Part shown: positions 1,224 to 25,863 of the stretch, piece by piece
Numbering within the stretch: position 1 is the first letter of the stretch
Layout of the letters: the number at the start of each line of letters is the position of its first letter
Virus record (IMG/VR): IMGVR_UViG_3300037258_001180
Coordinates: 1-25,863 of that record
Length of the DNA stretch: 25,863 nt
Reading direction: 5' to 3' (one strand)
DNA from: a virus
Translations under genes and position numbers: made by a program
Notes under the pieces: generated by a model
What the model was told of the DNA's origin: nothing
Databases searched by the model: none
What the model saw: only the letters and a program-made list of their open reading frames with translations

Positions 1224-2765
1224 ATGGCGAAAGTTCAATCGGGTTGTGCGCGCTGGGCTGAAACGGAAGGAAGGCCACTGACACTTTCCTACGATCCGTT
1301 TCCGAAGCAGCGGCAGTTTCATGCGTCGCCGGCAAAATACAGGCTGTTCGGCGGCGCAGCCGGGCCGGGAAAGTCCAAAGCGCTGCTGATGGAAGCGGTG
1401 CTTCAAGCGCACGAGCATCCCAGGGCAAACACTCTGCTGCTGCGGAGAACGTTTCCGGAACTCGAACAATCGCTACTGCTCTATTTTCGGCGAGACGTTC
1501 CGCGAGAGCTTTACAAGAGCTTCAACGATTCAAAGCACGTGGTGGAGTGGTGGAACGGATCGACGACACGATTTGGCTACTGCCAGAGCGAAAACGACGT
1601 TTACCAGTATCAGGGAGCCGAGTTTCTCTTCATCGGCATCGATGAGCTGACGCTGTTTACGCTGCGGCAATGGCAATTTTTGACGAGCCGCAACCGGTGT
1701 CCGGTGGCTGGAGCGTTTCCGTGCATGGCGGGTGCGACGAACCCAGGAAACATCGGGCACGCGTGGGTGAAGGCGCTGTGGGTGGACAAAAAGCCAGCCG
1801 CGGGCATGGAGACGCCTGAGGAATACGATCCGGGCGACTACGACTTTATTCCGGCGCGCGTGAGCGACAATCCGATCTATGCGACGGACGAGCAGTACAC
1901 GAAAACACTGCGGTCGCTTCCGTCACATCTGAAGCGGGCGTTTCTGGATGGGGATTGGGACGTCTTCGCGGGGCAATACTTCGACAGATTCGACTATTCG
2001 CGGCATGTGGTGCGGCCGGAACAGATCGAGTGGAAAGACTGGTGGCCGCGATGGATTTCGCTCGACTGGGGTTTCGAACATCCGGCGGCAGTGTATTGGC
2101 ACGCGGCGATACCGGGCAAGAGCGGGCCGGCGATTGAGCCGGGGGGGCAAGGATCGGCGTTGCGCGGGGACGAGGGGCGGCAGGGGCAGGTGGCGACGTA
2201 TCGCGAATATGTGACGCGACGAACGCCGCCGCGCGAGTTGGCACGCGAGATTGTGTCGAGAAGCGATTCGAACGGAGAACGAGAGAAGATCGATGCGATC
2301 TATCTTTCGCCGGACGCGTTTGCGAGGCGGACTGACGAGGCGTCGATCGCGGAACAGATGGGAGATGTATTCGCAGCAGCAGGATTTCCGCGGCCGATTC
2401 CCGCAGACGACGATCGCATCGGCGGCTGGATGCTGATGTACCAAATGCTGGACGCTGGCGAGTGGATCCTCGGCGAGAATTGCGTGGAGTTGATTCGGAC
2501 GCTGCCGAATTTGATTCGGGACGATGCGCGGATTGAGGACGTGGAGAAATGCGATGGCGACGATCCGGCGGATGCGGCGCGGTATGGACTGAAATCGCGT
2601 TACGGTGTGCGCCGACAGGGCAGCGTGTGGGTGCCGCTTGAGCAGCGGCTTGCAGCGCGAGTGACGTCCGCCGATCCGACGGTGCGGGCGATTCAAGCGA
2701 TGAAGGCGCAGTTGGAAGAGACGAGCAAGTTGATGCCGGTGTCGTTTTTGAGGCGACGGCGGTAG
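1224..2765 (+). CDS. terL: Terminase large subunit (ATPase plus nuclease)
   Basis: This 513-residue protein is the motor that pumps phage DNA into the procapsid through the portal and cuts the concatemer. The N-terminal ATPase has a Walker A loop, GGAAGPGKS, at residues 43-51, a Walker B strand, FLFIGIDE, at 134-141 (catalytic E141), and a coupling motif, GATNPGN, at 170-176. The C-terminal RNase H-fold nuclease shows LDWG at 280-283 (metal-binding D281), a second acidic site, SPDAF, at 362-366 (D363), and a third Asp in DPADAARYG near 447-455. Together these are the complete catalytic set, and the length is normal for the family. A Gly-rich insert lies at about 297-325 within the nuclease domain. 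The start at 1224 lacks a strong Shine-Dalgarno site. The portal gene lies about 1.1 kb downstream, as is typical. Confidence 0.95.
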   Translation: MAKVQSGCARWAETEGRPLTLSYDPFPKQRQFHASPAKYRLFGGAAGPGKSKALLMEAVLQAHEHPRANTLLLRRTFPELEQSLLLYFRRDVPRELYKSFNDSKHVVEWWNGSTTRFGYCQSENDVYQYQGAEFLFIGIDELTLFTLRQWQFLTSRNRCPVAGAFPCMAGATNPGNIGHAWVKALWVDKKPAAGMETPEEYDPGDYDFIPARVSDNPIYATDEQYTKTLRSLPSHLKRAFLDGDWDVFAGQYFDRFDYSRHVVRPEQIEWKDWWPRWISLDWGFEHPAAVYWHAAIPGKSGPAIEPGGQGSALRGDEGRQGQVATYREYVTRRTPPRELAREIVSRSDSNGEREKIDAIYLSPDAFARRTDEASIAEQMGDVFAAAGFPRPIPADDDRIGGWMLMYQMLDAGEWILGENCVELIRTLPNLIRDDARIEDVEKCDGDDPADAARYGLKSRYGVRRQGSVWVPLEQRLAARVTSADPTVRAIQAMKAQLEETSKLMPVSFLRRRR

Positions 2766-9584: not shown

Positions 9585-10859
9585 ATGGCACAGATGCAGA
9601 ATGCACAGTCTGTTGCGCTGCAATTGGAGAAGGTGAGAGACAAACTTCCCCTTCTCTATGAACGTGACGACATTTTATTGACGATGATCCAGCAGCGCGG
9701 CGATGTAGAGCGTGTCAGCTCCCGCAATATGCGACTTCCGCTGCAGATTCGTCCGGGAGGCAAAGCGGGCCTGGCGAATATGGACGGAGGCGACCTCGGG
9801 CGCGGTTCTGGCACGACCTACGATGTGGCGCAAGTGACGCCCGTTTTCTTCCGCCACGCCGTAGAAATTACGAAATTGGTGGAGTACGCGTCCAACGCTC
9901 CCGAAAAATCTATCGAGAACGCGGCTAAGCGGGAAGTGAAGAACAACATGGCGCAGTTCCGGTCGTTTCTCGACAAGGTGATGCAGACCAACGGGAATGG
10001 CGTTCTCGGAACGGTGGGATCGATCACAACCAGCGGGCTTCCAAGCGGCGTAGCAGCACAGTTCACGATGGCGAAGCCGCCGGGCGCGCAGCTCTTCTAT
10101 TACAACCAAACGGTTCAGGTTTACGATCCGACGCTAACCACAAACCGGGGCTCCGCGAACGTATTGCTCGTCGATCCCTTTAACTCACTGATCCAGGTGG
10201 ATAGCCTGCCGAGCGGCACAAGCGCAAACGACTTGGTGGTGCACGACGGACTCACGGGGTCTTTGCCTGTGTCGCTGTTTGGCATTCTCTACCACCAAAC
10301 CAACGCCACGACCGGAACCTGGCTCAACATGAACCGCGCGACGTACCCGGTGGAACTGGCGACGCCGCGAGTGAATGGAAACAATTCGGCGATCACACCC
10401 GGAGCGGTGCGCCTTGCGATCAATAAGGTGCGGAAGTCACTGGGTACGAACCAACTGAATAAGCTGATCGCTTACACGTCACTCGAGCAGGAACACCAGT
10501 GGGAACAGCTCGGCGTGACCATCTCGCAGATCATCAAGGAGGGAGCCGGCGGCCGCGCAAGCGACCTCGACTTGCTCTTCACAGGCGAGAAGTCGATGGC
10601 GGGAGTGCCCATTAAGTCGAGTATCAACGCCAATCAATCGCGCGTCGATTTCCTCGACCTATCGCACTGGGGCCGGGCCGTGATGCAGGACATCGACTTT
10701 TACGATGTGGGCGGACAAACCGTATTTCCGATCTATGGCGCCAGCGGCGGGTTGGCCAGCGCATACATCTTCTACTTCGTGACGGGCTTCCAGGTTTGGA
10801 ACGACTCGCCGCGCAGTGGGGCTTACATCGATAACCTCGCGATTCCATCTGGTTACTAG
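9585..10859 (+). CDS. Major capsid protein
   Basis: This 424-residue protein follows the scaffold-like gene. The ATG at 9585 has an AAGGGAG site about ten bases upstream. An N-terminal helical arm (QLEKVRDKLPLLYERDDILLTMIQQRG) leads into a folded core. The core includes PVFFRHAVEITKLVEYASN at about 87-105, a helix MAQFRSFLDKVMQTNGNGVLG, and a beta-rich domain with Gly, Asn and Thr. The C-terminus has YIFYFVTGFQVWNDSPRSGAYIDNL. Length, absence of Cys, composition and position between scaffold and terminator identify it as the major capsid protein, presumably with the HK97 fold used by all tailed phages. I cannot name the precise family. The strong downstream terminator also fits a highly expressed capsid gene. 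Confidence 0.85.
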   Translation: MAQMQNAQSVALQLEKVRDKLPLLYERDDILLTMIQQRGDVERVSSRNMRLPLQIRPGGKAGLANMDGGDLGRGSGTTYDVAQVTPVFFRHAVEITKLVEYASNAPEKSIENAAKREVKNNMAQFRSFLDKVMQTNGNGVLGTVGSITTSGLPSGVAAQFTMAKPPGAQLFYYNQTVQVYDPTLTTNRGSANVLLVDPFNSLIQVDSLPSGTSANDLVVHDGLTGSLPVSLFGILYHQTNATTGTWLNMNRATYPVELATPRVNGNNSAITPGAVRLAINKVRKSLGTNQLNKLIAYTSLEQEHQWEQLGVTISQIIKEGAGGRASDLDLLFTGEKSMAGVPIKSSINANQSRVDFLDLSHWGRAVMQDIDFYDVGGQTVFPIYGASGGLASAYIFYFVTGFQVWNDSPRSGAYIDNLAIPSGY

Positions 10860-18310: not shown

Positions 18311-20230
18311 CTAGTTTTTTATGATGTCGACTGTTACCGACACTCCTCGAGTAGCATTCAGGGACGTACCATTTTGGCTCGACGCGCTAGCTTGTATCAA
18401 AATTGAGGCCGTGCCGACTGGTGTCGCGGCGATCGTCATGGAGTTATGGTGGCATCCCACTAAAACCATTCCAACAGCAATGGCTAAGCCCACAACTCTC
18501 ACGTAACGATAGCGCTGAGCGGCAATGAGCAGCGGCACGACAATTAAAAGTAAGAATGAAAGAGCTACGAGTAAGGGATGCCCACGGAAGTCAGAGCCTG
18601 GCAAGTACGGAAAAGCTAGGAGCTTAGCTTCGATCGCGTTGGAAGAAGTCTGAATGGTGACGGTTACAGCGGCCGGCGAACCGACCGTGGGAGTTACAGA
18701 CGCGGGACTGACGGTACACACGCTGTTCGCCGGGGTTCCGCTAGGGCACAAGAATGATACATGCTCGCCGCTTTGACCAAATGCTCCGAGCGCGACGACT
18801 TGCAAATGGAAAGTGCCGGATGCTCCCTGGATTATTGACACTTCCTGCGGCTGACCACTCGCAAGCTGAAGCTGATAATCGGTTCCTGTACCAGCCAGGG
18901 ACGCCGTCGCCGACCCAATGGTGAGTGTGGAATCGAGTGTGCCAACCGAAGCGGGAGTGAGCGCAACGTTGATCGTGCAGCTCGCGCCCGCCGCTAGTGT
19001 CGACACGCACGACGTGCTCTCAACCGTGAAATCACTCGTCGTCGCCGGCGCGGCCGGTTGAAACGCGATGCTGTTGCCCGAAATTGCCGCCTGTGAATTA
19101 TTGGTGAGTGTGAATTGCTCCTGCTGCGACGTGCCACCGATCGGCTCGTTTTGGAAAGTCCAGGTGCCTGGCGACAACGAGAGCGCGGCTGGCGGGTCTC
19201 CCGCATTCTGTGCTTCGATGATGCGATTTAAGCCCTGCTCGGCAGCGTAAAGATTGCGTCCTTGTTGATCGAAGGCCAAGGCACCGGGCTGTTGGAGATT
19301 GGTCATCACCGCTGTTGTGGCGCCGGTATGAGCATCCACTCGCAGGATTCGTCCGAAAGTTGAATCCGAGATGAAGAGATTGCCAGCGCCGTCTACGGCC
19401 AAACCCGCGGGGCAAACAAGATTCGATCCGGGCGAACACGGTGACGCGTCAGAGACGGTTCCGGTCACGGTTGATCGGCCGTCGAGTGTATTCACGACGT
19501 GCATGGAGCGCGTCTGAAGATCAATTGCCAAGACCGAACCCGTCTGAGGCGAAGCCACGAACGCTTCAGTTCCTTCGGCTGTAACAGCCACACTGGAGGG
19601 AGAGGCGACTTGAGCGATCACTTCGAGGGCGCCAGTAGCCGCGCGCAAAACATCCAACACGCCAGTGTGGTCTGCAATATACAGATTGCCGGCCCCATCT
19701 AGCGCGATTCCTAGCGGACGTGAAAGCGATAGGTTCTGGCGGGGCGCCCAGCGGCCAGCGACGCTGCGGATAATTCCCGGTTCTGTGCTTCCAGAGGCCG
19801 CAATACGGCGGATCGTGTCATTTTCGGTGTCTGCAATATAGATCGTGCCATCGCGGCTGACAGCGACGCCGCTTCGTTCATACAAAAGCCCCGCATCCAA
19901 GCTCAATTGCGCCGAAGCGGCCGGTCCGCCATCTCCCAGAGAGCCTTCTGCTCCGATTCCGGCGACATCCGTCAGGGCGGCGGTACGATTGGGCGACGCG
20001 ACCAGAGGGGAAGAGTCCAAGGCGAAAACCTGGTTCTTCGGCGAGGCCAGAGTGACATAAACAGACGATTGGGGACCGATAGCGAGACTTCTGGCAGGCA
20101 CACCCTGAGCTATAACGAGAGGCTGCGTTGCTCCCGAGGCTCCAATTGAAGAATTTGCCTCGTTTTGAGGGAAAGCAACTGTAACAAGAACAATAGCCGC
20201 CACCGCAGCCGCAATCAAGACTCGACGCAC
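18311..20230 (-). CDS. Membrane-anchored NHL beta-propeller with ASH-type domain (cargo gene)
   Basis: This 639-residue protein is read from a GTG at 20230, with AAGGAG six bases before it; the TTG at 20233 would be too close. A signal/anchor segment (residues 4-20, VLIAAAVAAIVLVTVAF) is followed by an NHL-repeat propeller at about 45-320. At least five blades show the pattern GVAVSRDGTIYIADTENDTIRRI and GLAVDGAGNLFISDSTFGRILRVD. An ASH/Hydin-like beta domain (about 340-445) contains FTLTNNSQAAISG and SCTINVALTPASVGTLDSTLTI. Two membrane segments lie near 551-571 and 579-593, and a 46-residue Thr/Ser tail follows GCHHN. This combination is common among extracellular Acidobacteriota proteins. 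It points to a surface scaffold or adhesin, not to a virion role. It converges on the adaptor with a 22-base gap, so it is likely a cargo gene. Confidence 0.85.
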   Translation of the reverse strand: MRRVLIAAAVAAIVLVTVAFPQNEANSSIGASGATQPLVIAQGVPARSLAIGPQSSVYVTLASPKNQVFALDSSPLVASPNRTAALTDVAGIGAEGSLGDGGPAASAQLSLDAGLLYERSGVAVSRDGTIYIADTENDTIRRIAASGSTEPGIIRSVAGRWAPRQNLSLSRPLGIALDGAGNLYIADHTGVLDVLRAATGALEVIAQVASPSSVAVTAEGTEAFVASPQTGSVLAIDLQTRSMHVVNTLDGRSTVTGTVSDASPCSPGSNLVCPAGLAVDGAGNLFISDSTFGRILRVDAHTGATTAVMTNLQQPGALAFDQQGRNLYAAEQGLNRIIEAQNAGDPPAALSLSPGTWTFQNEPIGGTSQQEQFTLTNNSQAAISGNSIAFQPAAPATTSDFTVESTSCVSTLAAGASCTINVALTPASVGTLDSTLTIGSATASLAGTGTDYQLQLASGQPQEVSIIQGASGTFHLQVVALGAFGQSGEHVSFLCPSGTPANSVCTVSPASVTPTVGSPAAVTVTIQTSSNAIEAKLLAFPYLPGSDFRGHPLLVALSFLLLIVVPLLIAAQRYRYVRVVGLAIAVGMVLVGCHHNSMTIAATPVGTASILIQASASSQNGTSLNATRGVSVTVDIIKN

Positions 20231-20236
20231 CAATAG

Positions 20237-20822: not shown

Positions 20823-23210
20823 ATGTCTATCGAAACATTTTCTCCATTGCCGCTGAACACGTTTGGAACTTGGGTCACGCTACTTGACCCTTCCGATGTG
20901 CCGCCCGGAATGTCGCCCAGCCTCGGTGACGTGGATTTCTTTCCCGGGGGCATTCGTACGAGGCCAGGGCTGGTGACGCAATTATCCGGCGTAAGCGCGA
21001 CACCGCAAATCAACGGATTAAAAACCTATGTTACGCCGGGACTTGCGCAACGCTGCATCGTCTTCGATTCGCTTGGGAATGTTTATAAGGAATCGTCGCC
21101 GGGGCTTCTCTCCCCGATCAGCGGCGGCGTGATCTTGCCAAACCTGTATCTCGATTCGACGACTCATTTCGGCCGTGAATATATGGCCTTCGGTGACGGC
21201 GTAAGCGGACAGGACATGCCGCGGCAGTACGACGATAACTTCTTCGACCGGGTCAGCCAGATCGGTCCTGCCGAAGGGCCGGCAGTAGCCGATTCCAGTT
21301 CGTCAGGAAGCATTTCGCCGGGGCCACACCAGTGTGCCGTCGTATTCGTGACGCGCCAAGGCTATTGGACGGCGCCTTCGCCCGCGGTGACGTGGACGGC
21401 GGCGGGCGGGAATATGGTTAGCGTGACGAACATCCCGACGGGGCCGTCGAATGTAGTGCAGCGGTTGCTCGCTTTCACAGGGTCAGAGGGTGCGAACTTT
21501 TATCACGTCCCCGCGACGATGGTGATCAACGACAATTCGACGACTTCTGTGACTCTCGATTTTACGGATACGATTCTGCTATCCGGCGTGAGCATGGATT
21601 ATCTGTTCTCGCAAATCCAACTTCCCGAACAGCTAGGCGTGATCGATTATGCGGAACGCCTTTTCTGGTGGGGCGAACGGGCCCAAATGGATAATTGGCG
21701 CAACCTTTCTTTTGACGGAGGTTGGGATGCGTCGGGAAGCGGCCGCCCATTGGGCTGGGGTCTCGATCCCTCGTTCGGCGCAGGTGCAAGCAGGGAATCG
21801 AGCGATACGGTCTGGGGCGACGCCTACAAGATCACGGCTGATGGCACGAGTCTCGTGCGGGGAATGATCGAACAGAGCGCGATCCGCGATGCAAACGGCA
21901 ACCCGATGTGCGTCAACAACGTGGATTATTCGATCCGGGTTCGGGTGATGCGGACCACGGGACTTACACAGGGCAACCTGCTGATCAACGCGTTCAGCGC
22001 TACGCTCGGCCAGATAGGCACCGGAATCGCGGTGAGCGCGTCGCAGGCGACGGATAATTACCAAGAGTTTTCAGCACAGCTCTTTCCACCACAAGCGTCA
22101 CTGCCGACCGACCTTTCTCTTCGCGTCTACGCGGACGGCACGCCTTCACCGACTGGCGAAGCGTTTATCATCGACAATATCGAGATCTTTCCGACGGACG
22201 AACCGTTGAACGCGTCAATCGTGCGAGCGTCTGGAAGCGAAGAGCCTGAGGCCTACGACGGAGTGACAGGCTTCATGAGCATTGCCGAAAACAATGGGCA
22301 GTGTATCCGTGCAGCCTTTACCCTGCGCAATAACCTCTACTTTGTGAAGGAACGAAGCATGTATGTGACGGCAACCGATGGCGTTAATGAGCCGGCGCTG
22401 TGGACTGTCGAGGAAGTGTCAAACGAGGTCGGGACGCCGTCGGCACACGGAGTAGGAATTGGCGAAGAGTGGGTAGTGATCGCGGGTCGTTCGGGGCTGT
22501 ATCTCTTCGATGGGAGCGAACCCACTAAGCTCTCGCAGGAGATCCAGCCAACGTGGGACGCCATCAATTGGCAATATGGGCAGCGTCTCTGGGTGCAGGT
22601 CGACATACAGCACAAGAAAATCTACGTGGGTGTGCCGATGGGAGCCGTCACACAACCCAATCAAATTTTGATGTTGGATTATGCGGAGGGATTCGGCGAT
22701 CCGCTGCTTGCGATGTTCAGCGCACCGGAACGTTCGCGGAAATGGGCTCCGTGGACGATTTCTGCTAACTCCTGTGGACTGATCGAACGCTCAAACGGGA
22801 CGGCTCAAATCTTTTTGGGAACGAACAATAGCACCGGGAAGATCTACGGACTGACGCCCGGGCAATATTCGGACGATGGAAATGCGATCGACTCATTTTG
22901 CGGCACGGCATTTCTCGCAGCGACTGGACTGAGCGGGCGAAATTTATTTGGTTACCTGACTGCGTATGTTCAAGGGGCAGGCACGCTGTCGCTTTCAGCC
23001 TATTCGCCTGGGGACTCCAGCGTGACTGCCCTTGGATCATGGACGCTTGCGGCACCTGCAGGACGAGATATGGAGCAATTTACGAATCTGCTCGCAGAGC
23101 GAGTGTCATATCAAATCGGTACAAATGCCGTGGGGTCATGGTTCTCGCTCACAAAACTTGTTCCTTGGGCGAAACCAGACCCATTTGCAATCGTGCGCGG
23201 GACGAACTAG
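20823..23210 (+). CDS. Tail nozzle / DNA stabilisation-like protein
   Basis: This 795-residue protein begins MSIETFSPLPLNTFGTWVTL and looks like the beta-rich tail proteins of short-tailed phages (P22 gp10 / T7 gp12 type). These form a propeller-like nozzle below the adaptor. Key signs include DVDFFPGGIRTRPGLVTQL near 37-55, typical of the first strand region. Others are IDYAERLFWWGERAQMDNWRNLSFDGGWD near 276-305, and ERSMYVTATDGVNEPALWTVEEVSNEVGTPSAHGVGIGEEWVVIAGRSGLYLFDG in the C-terminal half. The last has the ordered propeller-blade pattern. A carbohydrate-binding-like jelly-roll insertion may lie near 310-470. There is no signal peptide. Its position after adaptor and small protein fits tail assembly. 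The call is by sequence pattern and context. Confidence 0.75.
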   Translation: MSIETFSPLPLNTFGTWVTLLDPSDVPPGMSPSLGDVDFFPGGIRTRPGLVTQLSGVSATPQINGLKTYVTPGLAQRCIVFDSLGNVYKESSPGLLSPISGGVILPNLYLDSTTHFGREYMAFGDGVSGQDMPRQYDDNFFDRVSQIGPAEGPAVADSSSSGSISPGPHQCAVVFVTRQGYWTAPSPAVTWTAAGGNMVSVTNIPTGPSNVVQRLLAFTGSEGANFYHVPATMVINDNSTTSVTLDFTDTILLSGVSMDYLFSQIQLPEQLGVIDYAERLFWWGERAQMDNWRNLSFDGGWDASGSGRPLGWGLDPSFGAGASRESSDTVWGDAYKITADGTSLVRGMIEQSAIRDANGNPMCVNNVDYSIRVRVMRTTGLTQGNLLINAFSATLGQIGTGIAVSASQATDNYQEFSAQLFPPQASLPTDLSLRVYADGTPSPTGEAFIIDNIEIFPTDEPLNASIVRASGSEEPEAYDGVTGFMSIAENNGQCIRAAFTLRNNLYFVKERSMYVTATDGVNEPALWTVEEVSNEVGTPSAHGVGIGEEWVVIAGRSGLYLFDGSEPTKLSQEIQPTWDAINWQYGQRLWVQVDIQHKKIYVGVPMGAVTQPNQILMLDYAEGFGDPLLAMFSAPERSRKWAPWTISANSCGLIERSNGTAQIFLGTNNSTGKIYGLTPGQYSDDGNAIDSFCGTAFLAATGLSGRNLFGYLTAYVQGAGTLSLSAYSPGDSSVTALGSWTLAAPAGRDMEQFTNLLAERVSYQIGTNAVGSWFSLTKLVPWAKPDPFAIVRGTN

Positions 23211-23361: not shown

Positions 23362-24369
23362 ATGCTCACGATTAGTCAAATTGAGGCCCTGCGCAAAACA
23401 AATCCGCAACTCTACGAAACTGTGAAGCGTCTCGCCGGAGCTTCTCTTGGGCCGAATCAGGGTTGGAGTATTGATGATCAGATTACGGATGGCACAAATT
23501 TCGCGCGCGTCGCAAGTGGCGCGCTAACGAGCGGGAAAATCGACCCGACAAAGCCCGGTGTCCTGATGAAGGGATCGGTGCCACCCACGTGGTCAGGATC
23601 GTTTGCGTACGTCTCGACAACCTCGACGCTCACATGGAACTGGACCGGGCTCACAATTTTTCGAGCGGACGGAACTGCCACTGCAGTGTCGAATGGCTCG
23701 ATAGTTGTGACAGGGCTTGCGGCTGCAACTAGCTATTACTTCTATCCTTATTGGGATGAGGTTGCGTCAACATTGGACTGGGTAGCGAGTGGAAGTGGCT
23801 CTCCGGCGCTCGCGCAGACCAACAAGACGAACACGGCAGCACAACAGCAATCGCTCCAAGGACGTGTGCCACTATCGCAGGGAGCGATCATCGCCGCAAC
23901 GACTTCCAGCGGAACAGGTGGTGGGTCCGGAGGAGGGAGCGGAAGCTGTCTTCGCTCAGGAGCTCTGGTGCTCACGAAAGAGCGGGGAACTGTTGAAATT
24001 GAAACGTGCAAAGTGGGCGAGCACCTTCGTTGCCCGTCACCTGCTGGCGGGGAAACATGGACGCGCATCATACGTGTTGAAGTGCGTGATGCGGACACGT
24101 TCATTCGGCTTCATTTCTCGAACAGCGAGACGTTGGACGTTACACCACACCATATCTTCACATTGGCCGACGGTTCGCCGATGCGCGCCGAGCGCCTGTG
24201 CCTGAGCGACATTTTTGTGGGAAGGTTCAGCCGGATCACACTGCAGAAAATCGAAGCCATCGTGGAAGATGGACAAAAAGTGACTGTGAGTTGTGAGCCT
24301 AATCACGAATTCTTCGCGGGTCGCCATACTGCGACAGTATTAACTCACAATTACACGTTTAGCTCATAA
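23362..24369 (+). CDS. Tail protein with C-terminal bacterial-intein-like Hint domain
   Basis: This is a 335-residue protein. Residues 1-70 are a helical/coil region and residues about 75-150 form a fibronectin-III-like beta domain (TWNWTGLTIFRADGTATAVS, VVTGLAAATSYYFYPYWDE). A Gly/Ser linker (about 184-195) runs into C196 in SCLRSGALVLT, the intein block-A cysteine. A TPHH motif at 261-264 supplies T261 and H264 of block B. Block F is SCEPNHEFFAG near 310-320, and the domain ends in H329-N330 followed by Y331. This is a complete A-type bacterial-intein-like (BIL) signature. Such domains are known to cleave themselves, which would release the N-terminal part and a short TFSS tail. No homing endonuclease is present. 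The gene is near the tail cluster, so it is presumably a virion protein processed by self-cleavage. Confidence 0.85.
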   Translation: MLTISQIEALRKTNPQLYETVKRLAGASLGPNQGWSIDDQITDGTNFARVASGALTSGKIDPTKPGVLMKGSVPPTWSGSFAYVSTTSTLTWNWTGLTIFRADGTATAVSNGSIVVTGLAAATSYYFYPYWDEVASTLDWVASGSGSPALAQTNKTNTAAQQQSLQGRVPLSQGAIIAATTSSGTGGGSGGGSGSCLRSGALVLTKERGTVEIETCKVGEHLRCPSPAGGETWTRIIRVEVRDADTFIRLHFSNSETLDVTPHHIFTLADGSPMRAERLCLSDIFVGRFSRITLQKIEAIVEDGQKVTVSCEPNHEFFAGRHTATVLTHNYTFSS

Positions 24370-24432: not shown

Positions 24433-24807
24433 ATGACAGGCAAATGCTATTACTTGACGACGCTCGGTGATTGGAAACGGCATGCCGCGTCTTTCGCAAA
24501 CTCCCATTGGGTTGCTCTGCAAGTACCAGATAACAGTAATGAGTGCCATGCCACTCCAAACACACAGGCGATGGTTGAGGAGACGGCATCAATCCTAGTC
24601 CTAATCGAAGCGGATGAGGGCACACATGGAGTGCTTGAAGATGACCCGTCGTTCGAGCCTCTGCCGCATCCACTTTCGCAAAAGGCAATTTCCGAAACGG
24701 CGCAGGCGGCTCTTAGCTCTCACGGCGTCGTGCGTGGAGCCTCTACATTCGATGCGACCGAAATAATCGCTCGCGTCCATCCGCTTTTGCGACACCGCGT
24801 GTTTTGA
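24433..24807 (+). CDS. Hypothetical protein (unknown)
   Basis: This 124-residue protein lies between the Hint protein and the GNAT-like protein. It starts at the ATG 24433, but with only a weak ribosome site. The sequence has a beta-strand-like opening, TGKCYYLTTLGDWKR. A mixed region with two Cys (5 and 38) and ETASILVLIEADEGTH follows, then a predicted helix pair near 80-115 (AISETAQAALSSHG and ATEIIARVHPLLR). No signal peptide or membrane segment is present. I recognise no family. Tight spacing with the downstream gene (gap about 34 bases) suggests co-expression with the tail genes. Confidence 0.6.
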   Translation: MTGKCYYLTTLGDWKRHAASFANSHWVALQVPDNSNECHATPNTQAMVEETASILVLIEADEGTHGVLEDDPSFEPLPHPLSQKAISETAQAALSSHGVVRGASTFDATEIIARVHPLLRHRVF

Positions 24808-24841
24808 GTGGCAGACGGCTCTGGAAAGGGAATTGGCATCG

Positions 24842-25246
24842 ATGATCGTGCGCGAATACACTCCAGGCGATCTGGCAGCTCTAAAACGCATGCATGAGCG
24901 CCAAGGGTTTGACTATGCTTTTCCGAACATTGCCGATCCCATCTTCGTCTCAAAACTTGTCGTGGAAGACGGACCGGCGGGCGTCGTAATGGCATCGCTC
25001 GCGCGCCTGACCTGCGAAATGTATCTGTTAATGGATCCCGAAGCGGGATCTGCGCGGGATCGATACGGGCGAATCGTACAGTTGCACCGCGCCGGGCAAA
25101 CTGACCTCGCCGCGCGTGGATTAGACGACGCTCATGCGTGGCTTCCCCCGCGTATCGCAGTGAGATTTGGCCGGCGCCTTGAGGCCCTCGGTTGGATCCG
25201 TGATGACAAATGGACACCCTACTGCCAGCGCCTCAATAATCTCTGA
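24842..25246 (+). CDS. Phage GNAT-family acetyltransferase-like protein
   Basis: This 134-residue protein starts MIVREYTPGDLAALKRMHERQGFDYAFP. The ATG at 24842 has an AAAGGG sequence about 11 bases upstream; a TTG at 24833 would add three residues. The pattern of REYTPGDLAALKRMHERQGFDY, then KLVVEDGPAGVVMASLA, YLLMDPEAGSARDRYGRI and FGRRLEALGWIRDD matches a recurrent small phage family annotated as GNAT N-acetyltransferases. It is shorter than typical GNATs, and the usual acetyl-CoA loop (Q/RxxGxG/A) is not visible, so catalytic activity is uncertain. It is frequent next to tail genes in phages, where its role is unknown. Confidence 0.7.
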   Translation: MIVREYTPGDLAALKRMHERQGFDYAFPNIADPIFVSKLVVEDGPAGVVMASLARLTCEMYLLMDPEAGSARDRYGRIVQLHRAGQTDLAARGLDDAHAWLPPRIAVRFGRRLEALGWIRDDKWTPYCQRLNNL

Positions 25247-25299
25247 CTGCACAGCTTTTGGCGGGCGATAGAGTCCGCTCGAGTGTCTGTTTGAAAAAT

Positions 25300-25304
25300 G
25301 GAGG
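25300..25304 (+). promoter_or_regulatory. Ribosome binding site fixing the start at 25309
   Basis: GGAGG lies four bases before the ATG at 25309 and argues against the longer ORF starting at 25258. Confidence 0.7.
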
Positions 25305-25308
25305 ACGT

Positions 25309-25863
25309 ATGTCTCGCGGTGCGCAGCAAAATACTCGCAATCTTGCAGACCAGCAATTGACGCAGCAGAACCAACTGATTTCGCAATCGAACCAGCAAGG
25401 GCAACAAGATCGCTCATTGCTGGTACCCGCTATCGACAACTTATTGAACAGCCCTGGTTTCACACCTCAGCAGCAGTCGGATATTACGCAGCAAAGTCTC
25501 GGAGCAGCGAACACTGCCTACGATGCACTCCGAGAGCGCGCTGCCAATCGTGTTGCCGCGACGAACAATTCTGCCGGGTATGGCGACCTAGTTGCTCAAC
25601 TTGGGCGTCAACAAGCTCAGAGCGATGCGAGTCAAGCGCAGCAGAACCAGATCGCATTCGCAAATCGGCAAAGGCAAGACCAAATGGCTGGCCTCAATGC
25701 TGCGAGCCAAACCTACGGTATCGACACCAATCTGTTGGGAAAAGCTATGGGCGTCCCTTCAGAACTACTCAGCGTGCGACAGCGTGCCTCAACTGGGTCC
25801 TCTACGAGCGGATTTGGAGGGCTGTTCGGCATTGGCTCCGGCATCGCATCGCTGTTCGGGTGA
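25309..25863 (+). CDS. Gln-rich internal virion / DNA-ejection-like protein
   Basis: This 184-residue protein starts MSRGAQQNTRNLADQQ at the ATG fixed by GGAGG. The N-terminal two thirds are strongly rich in Gln, Ala, Asn and Ser, with long helical stretches (QQNQLISQSNQQGQQDRSLL, AYDALRERAANRVAA, AQSDASQAQQNQIAFANRQ). The last 20 residues are Gly/Ser/Phe-rich and hydrophobic (GFGGLFGIGSGIASLFG). Gln/Ala-rich helical proteins downstream of the tail genes are common as internal virion or ejection proteins of short-tailed phages, which go into the host envelope with the DNA. The glycine-rich hydrophobic end could contact membrane. The window ends exactly at its stop codon, so further ejection genes may follow. 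Family identification is not certain. Confidence 0.6.
   Translation: MSRGAQQNTRNLADQQLTQQNQLISQSNQQGQQDRSLLVPAIDNLLNSPGFTPQQQSDITQQSLGAANTAYDALRERAANRVAATNNSAGYGDLVAQLGRQQAQSDASQAQQNQIAFANRQRQDQMAGLNAASQTYGIDTNLLGKAMGVPSELLSVRQRASTGSSTSGFGGLFGIGSGIASLFG

Follow-up and report, generated by a model that had tools for sequence, protein, structure and literature searches.

The locus studied here raises the question of what an intein-related Hint domain does at the end of a protein from a phage tail cluster, and whether it cleaves that protein, joins it to something else or simply caps it. Phage inteins are known inside enzymes, and a terminal Hint on a tail-tip-like protein would add self-processing to virion assembly. 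The window, that is the whole stretch of DNA analysed, comprises the 25,863 bases of a virus record in IMG/VR, whose first codon is ATG and whose last is a stop, as would be the case in a trimmed provirus. ORF 23362-24369 (+) encodes 335 aa, with the stop at 24367-24369, and the residue numbers used below are exact. An earlier note, made from the letters alone, had proposed a complete type A bacterial-intein-like (BIL) Hint domain in the last 140 residues of this protein, and the residues it named are all in place, with C196 after ...GGGSGGGSGS, followed by T261-P262-H263-H264, N314-H315-E-F-F and H329-N330-Y331. The features of the locus are collected in Table 1.

Table 1. Features of the Hint-bearing protein and of the surrounding cluster in the window.
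Feature	Position	Strand	Support
Tail-tip-like protein with C-terminal Hint, 335 aa	23362..24369	+	20 intact homologues
N-terminal segment, aa 1-30 (MLTIxQIEALRxxNPQLYE...)	23362..23451	+	hhalign prob 92.7, E 4e-7 to Hint-less proteins
Beta-rich, possibly FN3-like region, aa 76-150	23587..23811	+	similarity to L022 1339-aa tail-tip protein
Gly/Ser linker immediately preceding Cys196, aa 183-195	23908..23946	+	pN/pS 0.19
Hint domain from Cys1 to the terminal Asn, aa 196-330, lacking an endonuclease insert	23947..24351	+	profile and fold matches
Cys196, N-terminal nucleophile (Cys1)	23947..23949	+	invariant 20/20; present in L007 Hint
Block B TPHH (T261, H264)	24142..24153	+	invariant 20/20
Block G His329-Asn330	24346..24351	+	invariant 20/20
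C-terminal tail YTFSS, five residues	24352..24366	+	fixed length; pN/pS 0.137 over 5 codons
MTGKxYYLTTL-family gene, 124 aa	24433..24807	+	co-inherited with Hint protein
Virion structural protein, 795 aa, upstream of Hint gene	20823..23210	+	phrog_3287, E 2.6e-7; syntenic in cluster contigs
Conserved cluster gene, flanks Hint-gene position in Hint-less genomes too	24833..25246	+	cluster comparison
Gln-rich conserved cluster gene	25258..25863	+	cluster comparison
Major head protein, mostly single copy	9585..10859	+	phrog_14242, E 2.4e-5; in 44/89 family genomes
Terminase large subunit	1224..2765	+	phrog_979, E 5.6e-41

A C-terminal Hint domain and its place among known Hint proteins

Relatives of the Hint were collected from 7 loci on viral contigs and 13 in Acidobacteriota MAGs, and a profile built from 16 Hint stretches was searched against PDB sequences. 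The top match was 2LWY, 'BACTERIAL INTEIN-LIKE DOMAIN' (C. thermocellum BIL; E=3.2e-4), aligned over positions 4-135 with the T..H pair in register and ending exactly at HN, while the runner-up chain reached only E=0.085. Using AlphaFold2 with 17 sequences as input, we modelled a 144-aa Hint stretch (pLDDT 71.9, pTM 0.69; the poorest parts are the tail and the residues right behind block B, model positions 76-99) and compared the predicted fold with the PDB using Foldseek. Again 2LWY ranked first (E=4.3e-7, TM about 0.68), followed by Tetrahymena BUBL BIL2 in second place and then by class 3 and class 1 inteins and hedgehog; the top 20 matches (E<=1e-3), and 50/50 among the PDB matches listed, belonged to the Hint superfamily. 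The identification of aa 196-330 as a complete Hint domain is therefore firm, as the earlier note had it, and from the fold match C196, H264 and N330 would be expected to meet in one site.

Family-level and single-sequence searches differed in what they returned. The family profile recovered 2LWY, but the window protein scanned singly against Pfam gave only Vint (0.034) and Hint (0.069), both under cut-offs, and the whole 335-aa protein gave nothing in NCBIfam at E<=1. The window Hint thus lies under the curated cut-offs of both collections, the sole Hint above the TIGR01443 cut-off being that of L007, on an unrelated phage fragment. When members of the family were scanned singly, Intein_splicing was matched by 10/16, Hint by 7 (best 7.5e-5), PT-HINT by 2 (best 3.8e-5) and intein_Nterm by 12 (best 0.0016). 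Because of the fold result, we read the sub-cut-off scores as limited sensitivity of single sequences. Searching 50,697 phage records with the 335-aa protein by tblastn returned weak matches to ribonucleotide-reductase inteins and nothing else, and a Hint-profile scan across the phylum was positive in 1/396 genomes, the query's own only. The beta-rich region at aa 76-150 had been called fibronectin-like, a label we consider not established, since it has no Pfam match and the fold of the whole protein, with 7 sequences as input, was unusable at pLDDT 36.

In its motifs the domain resembles the A-type BIL 2LWY, with which it shares the Hint fold, Cys1, block B TxxH, a terminal His-Asn and a length of about 140 aa. 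The three motifs are present in 20/20 homologues, there is no homing endonuclease domain (the chain runs for 135-143 aa from Cys1 onwards), and the residue after Asn is not Cys, Ser or Thr, being Tyr in 20/20 and Phe in L007, a non-nucleophilic position that is also like A-type BILs. Those domains are described from non-conserved bacterial proteins, in regions that are hypervariable, and their C-terminus is cleaved through Asn (PMC7765530). Unlike them, the window Hint terminates a tail-tip-like protein, where a fixed five-residue tail is all that follows it, and is conserved across a clade together with a partner gene in a phage-derived cluster. Since its carrier is itself conserved across that clade (about 58-83% identity, fixed architecture), and is not a non-conserved protein with a hypervariable region, we name the domain A-type-BIL-like and do not file it as a member; of the earlier assignment to type A, the A-type-BIL-like ends are supported.

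Phage inteins such as those of the phiCbK terminase and ribonucleotide reductase likewise place the Hint superfamily in phage genes, but they interrupt enzymes and splice (PMC3556154), whereas the window Hint is terminal, sits on a structural protein and has neither a C/S/T at +1 nor a meaningful C-extein. Hedgehog Hog domains (fold matches 1at0 and 6tyy) are also C-terminal Hints that process an N-terminal partner, although the window Hint keeps the terminal His-Asn and a sterol-recognition region was not seen in it. Tail fibres and spikes can carry C-terminal self-cleaving chaperone domains, for example Peptidase_S74; the window Hint may resemble these in role only, since it too would process a fibre-like protein of the virion from its C-terminal end, and is unrelated to them in sequence. 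The literature searched (most subscription journals lie outside it) yielded no account of a structural virion protein that ends in a Hint. A class 3 intein was also considered, given that C311 and T328 are invariant, but Cys1 is invariant too and, as judged from the 2LWY alignment, C311 would fall beyond the block F:4 position, for which reasons we rejected it.

Conservation of the Hint, its carrier and its neighbour gene

Conservation was assessed across 20 intact homologues at near-saturated synonymous sites (pS 0.62-0.84). Invariant positions were C196, R198, V203, V260-H264, F266, C280, D283, C311, P313, F317, A319, G320, L327-N330, Y331, F333 and S335, with H315 conserved in 19/20. The pN/pS ratio was 0.15 in block B, 0.30 in the Hint, 0.31 in the FN3-like region and 0.19 in the Gly/Ser linker, and the tail followed the pattern Y-x-F-[S/T/N]-S, with exactly five residues in every copy. 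Two of the invariant Hint cysteines, C280 (24199-24201) and C311 (24292-24294), are additional to Cys1 and lie beside block B and within the block F region, respectively. Three further MAG copies were broken or altered, one by a stop inside the Hint between block B and block F (L018:1729-2772), one by frameshifts (L021:3010-3806) and one by the absence of the Gly/Ser linker (L017:3842-4702), so some lineages may not need the Hint or may be losing it, though these defects may be MAG errors.

Several observations bear on the carrier, the invariant tail, the co-inherited gene at 24433-24807, the Hint-less counterparts and the domesticated-looking chromosomal setting all being additions to the earlier note. 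In four genomes (G483, G433, G436 and G450) the homologues of the 795-aa protein and of 24833-25246 flank a gene for a protein of 179-273 aa, which shares its first ~30 residues with the window protein (hhalign prob 92.7, E about 4e-7), and has a different middle domain, a Gly-rich end and no Hint. From this sequence comparison the shared segment is a probable docking motif, and the Hint is evidently not part of the basic structural unit. No such counterpart was recognised in the ORF listing of G428, or at the expected place in that of G454. The same-position proteins offer a ready comparison in related bacteria.

A second line of evidence comes from the unrelated phage fragment that carries L007 and, on the same contig, L022. 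Here a 1339-aa Pfam Phage-tail_3 protein with a CBM5/12 module (L022:3121-7140) ends in the FN3-like region, a Gly-rich linker and a different Hint, and aa 39-179 of the window protein are 46% identical to it. The genes ahead of it encode DUF2460, BR0599/Gp84_N and NlpC/P60-like proteins, and the order DUF2460, BR0599, NlpC-P60-like, Phage-tail_3 is a hallmark of the siphophage tail tip. Since the cassette stands at the end of this Phage-tail_3 protein it belongs to the tail tip, and the context suggests that the protein acts at the tail tip or as a fibre, facing the host. The Hint of this fragment ends HN-F-K-S-N, and scores above cut-off for TIGR01443 intein_Cterm and at E 8e-5 for Vint. An hhalign comparison of the window and L007 Hint types was not significant (prob 1.3); we do not claim a common recent origin for them, and with no significant likeness between the two it may be that the arm persisted and the processing part was swapped. 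The Tunturi_4 tail protein was rejected as a relative, because its match covers only the repeats upstream in L007, without the Hint.

The neighbouring MTGK family comprises proteins of 109-150 aa that start MTGKxYYLTTL, encoded directly downstream of the Hint gene in most loci. Among 89 genomes from a single family of Acidobacteriota, 17 have the Hint protein and exactly the same 17 have the MTGK gene, which is absent from 6 Hint-less contigs. Trees place the Hint-bearing genomes in one host lineage, so this co-occurrence counts as one evolutionary event; the divergent MTGK homologue directly after the Hint in L022 is a second, independent case. In L184:3065-3487 and L186:295-663 the MTGK gene directly precedes the terminase gene and does not follow the Hint gene. 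The family has no match in Pfam, PHROG or PDB, and a search of phage records found no member. As the FN3-like region and the Hint always occur together, the MTGK gene may serve either.

Cleavage, ligation or a folded cap

Taken from sequence, our preferred reading, to which we give a probability of about 0.58, is that the 335-aa protein is a virion part from which cleavage at Cys196 and Asn330 would free a 195-residue structural part, with the MTGK protein serving the cassette. In the pathway that we infer, including the cleavage and its timing, the fate of the thioester and the role of MTGK, the protein would be a tail-tip- or fibre-like part made of a docking segment, a beta-rich body, a Gly/Ser arm and a Hint fused to the tip of that arm. 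Once the protein has folded, Cys196 would attack the Ser195-Cys196 bond in an N-S acyl shift aided by T261 and H264, giving a thioester, and Asn330 would cyclise with the aid of His329, cutting off the YTFSS tail. Hydrolysis or aminolysis of the thioester would then separate the structural part from the Hint and leave it with a Gly-rich C-terminus, in the same layout as the Hint-less proteins. MTGK would probably be an assembly chaperone or a partner in the processing reaction. Since only five residues follow Asn330, C-terminal cleavage alone would free a pentapeptide, and the meaningful event would be at Cys196.

The Hint would provide the flexible arm with a natural terminal thioester, which an amine could attack. 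Were the amine the newly freed N-terminus of the five-residue tail, splicing to ...GGGSGS-YTFSS would follow; were it a group of another virion protein, the structural part would become covalently bound to that protein. We regard such ligation or splicing as unlikely, while taking it seriously on account of the tail, whose fixed length and invariant Y331, F333 and S335 are not obviously expected of a discarded peptide; the pattern would fit ligation, or equally packing against the active site, and extends over five codons only. The Tetrahymena BUBL system ligates ubiquitin-like units, and its BIL2 is the second-best fold match. BILs without a +1 nucleophile gave predominantly cleaved products (PMC7664689), although titles cited there and in PMC7765530 report splicing or ligation by BILs that lack a nucleophilic side chain, and to judge from those titles the earlier statement that splicing is unlikely was too strong. 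Either way, trimming or joining of the tail part may involve a protein chemistry that the literature searched does not link to such parts.

Chaperone genes often stand directly after fibre genes, and the position of the MTGK gene in most Hint loci would suit a Hint that acts as a folded C-terminal cap, like an intramolecular chaperone, retained or slowly cleaved, with MTGK as the fibre-assembly chaperone. MTGK also varies with the whole FN3-like plus Hint cassette and cannot be assigned to the Hint alone. We nevertheless think this improbable, as invariance of exactly Cys1, TxxH and HN is a catalytic pattern, and the position upstream of the terminase in L184 and L186 is unlike that of a simple downstream chaperone. 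The stop, frameshift and linker deletion in three MAG copies, together with relatives that have the cluster and live without a detectable Hint, could instead suggest a selfish or swapped module under loss, an inactive relic without present function. This is very unlikely given the purifying selection on block B and the Hint, the 20 intact copies and the perfect co-retention with the MTGK gene, and cleavage at Cys196 remains our preferred reading.

A candidate domesticated cluster in Acidobacteriota

The head protein is found in 44/89 genomes of the family, as against 17/89 for the Hint protein, and the setting points to a candidate GTA-like element in a phylum that is abundant in soil. The complete module of G007 lies within a 309-kb chromosomal contig (C46, about 51-83 kb; L063-L065), where genes for a universal stress protein and a TrmJ-like protein separate the head gene from the tail gene that comes next. 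A thioredoxin-like gene and then nadE follow the cluster in 8/16 genome contigs, an isocitrate dehydrogenase gene also follows in the same order in four genomes, and the nadE-adjoining clusters include genomes whose head proteins are only 58-71% identical. Head-protein distances tracked those of rpoB (Mantel r 0.81, p 1e-4), and the two trees shared 9/20 splits against 0.2 by chance. No tyrosine integrase (PF00589) was found inside the cluster in 11 genomes or in two ~40 kb virus records.

The cluster is like gene transfer agents (GTAs) in having phage packaging and structural genes, mostly in single copy, at a conserved chromosomal position, with a largely host-congruent tree and no tyrosine integrase. 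Unlike them, it includes a clade, G454-G458, that conflicts with vertical descent, as its head proteins place it with the Hint-bearing clades and rpoB makes it the deepest; the G454 cluster is rearranged and its terminase is 42% identical. A tailocin was rejected, since terminase and head protein are present. The cluster is thus a candidate domesticated, GTA-like element of Acidobacteriota, with a temperate phage family that prefers a site near nadE as a possible alternative, and no GTAs of Acidobacteria were described in the literature searched. That GTA-like Acidobacteriota particles have a tail tip matured by a BIL-type Hint and its partner, with the thioester joining the arm to YTFSS or a virion protein, is a combination we hold to be doubtful. 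The tail module of the window also contains, in antisense orientation, a gene (18311-20233, -; PF01436 E 1.8e-12) whose NHL-repeat product looks secreted, and this gene occupies the same place in other Hint-bearing contigs.
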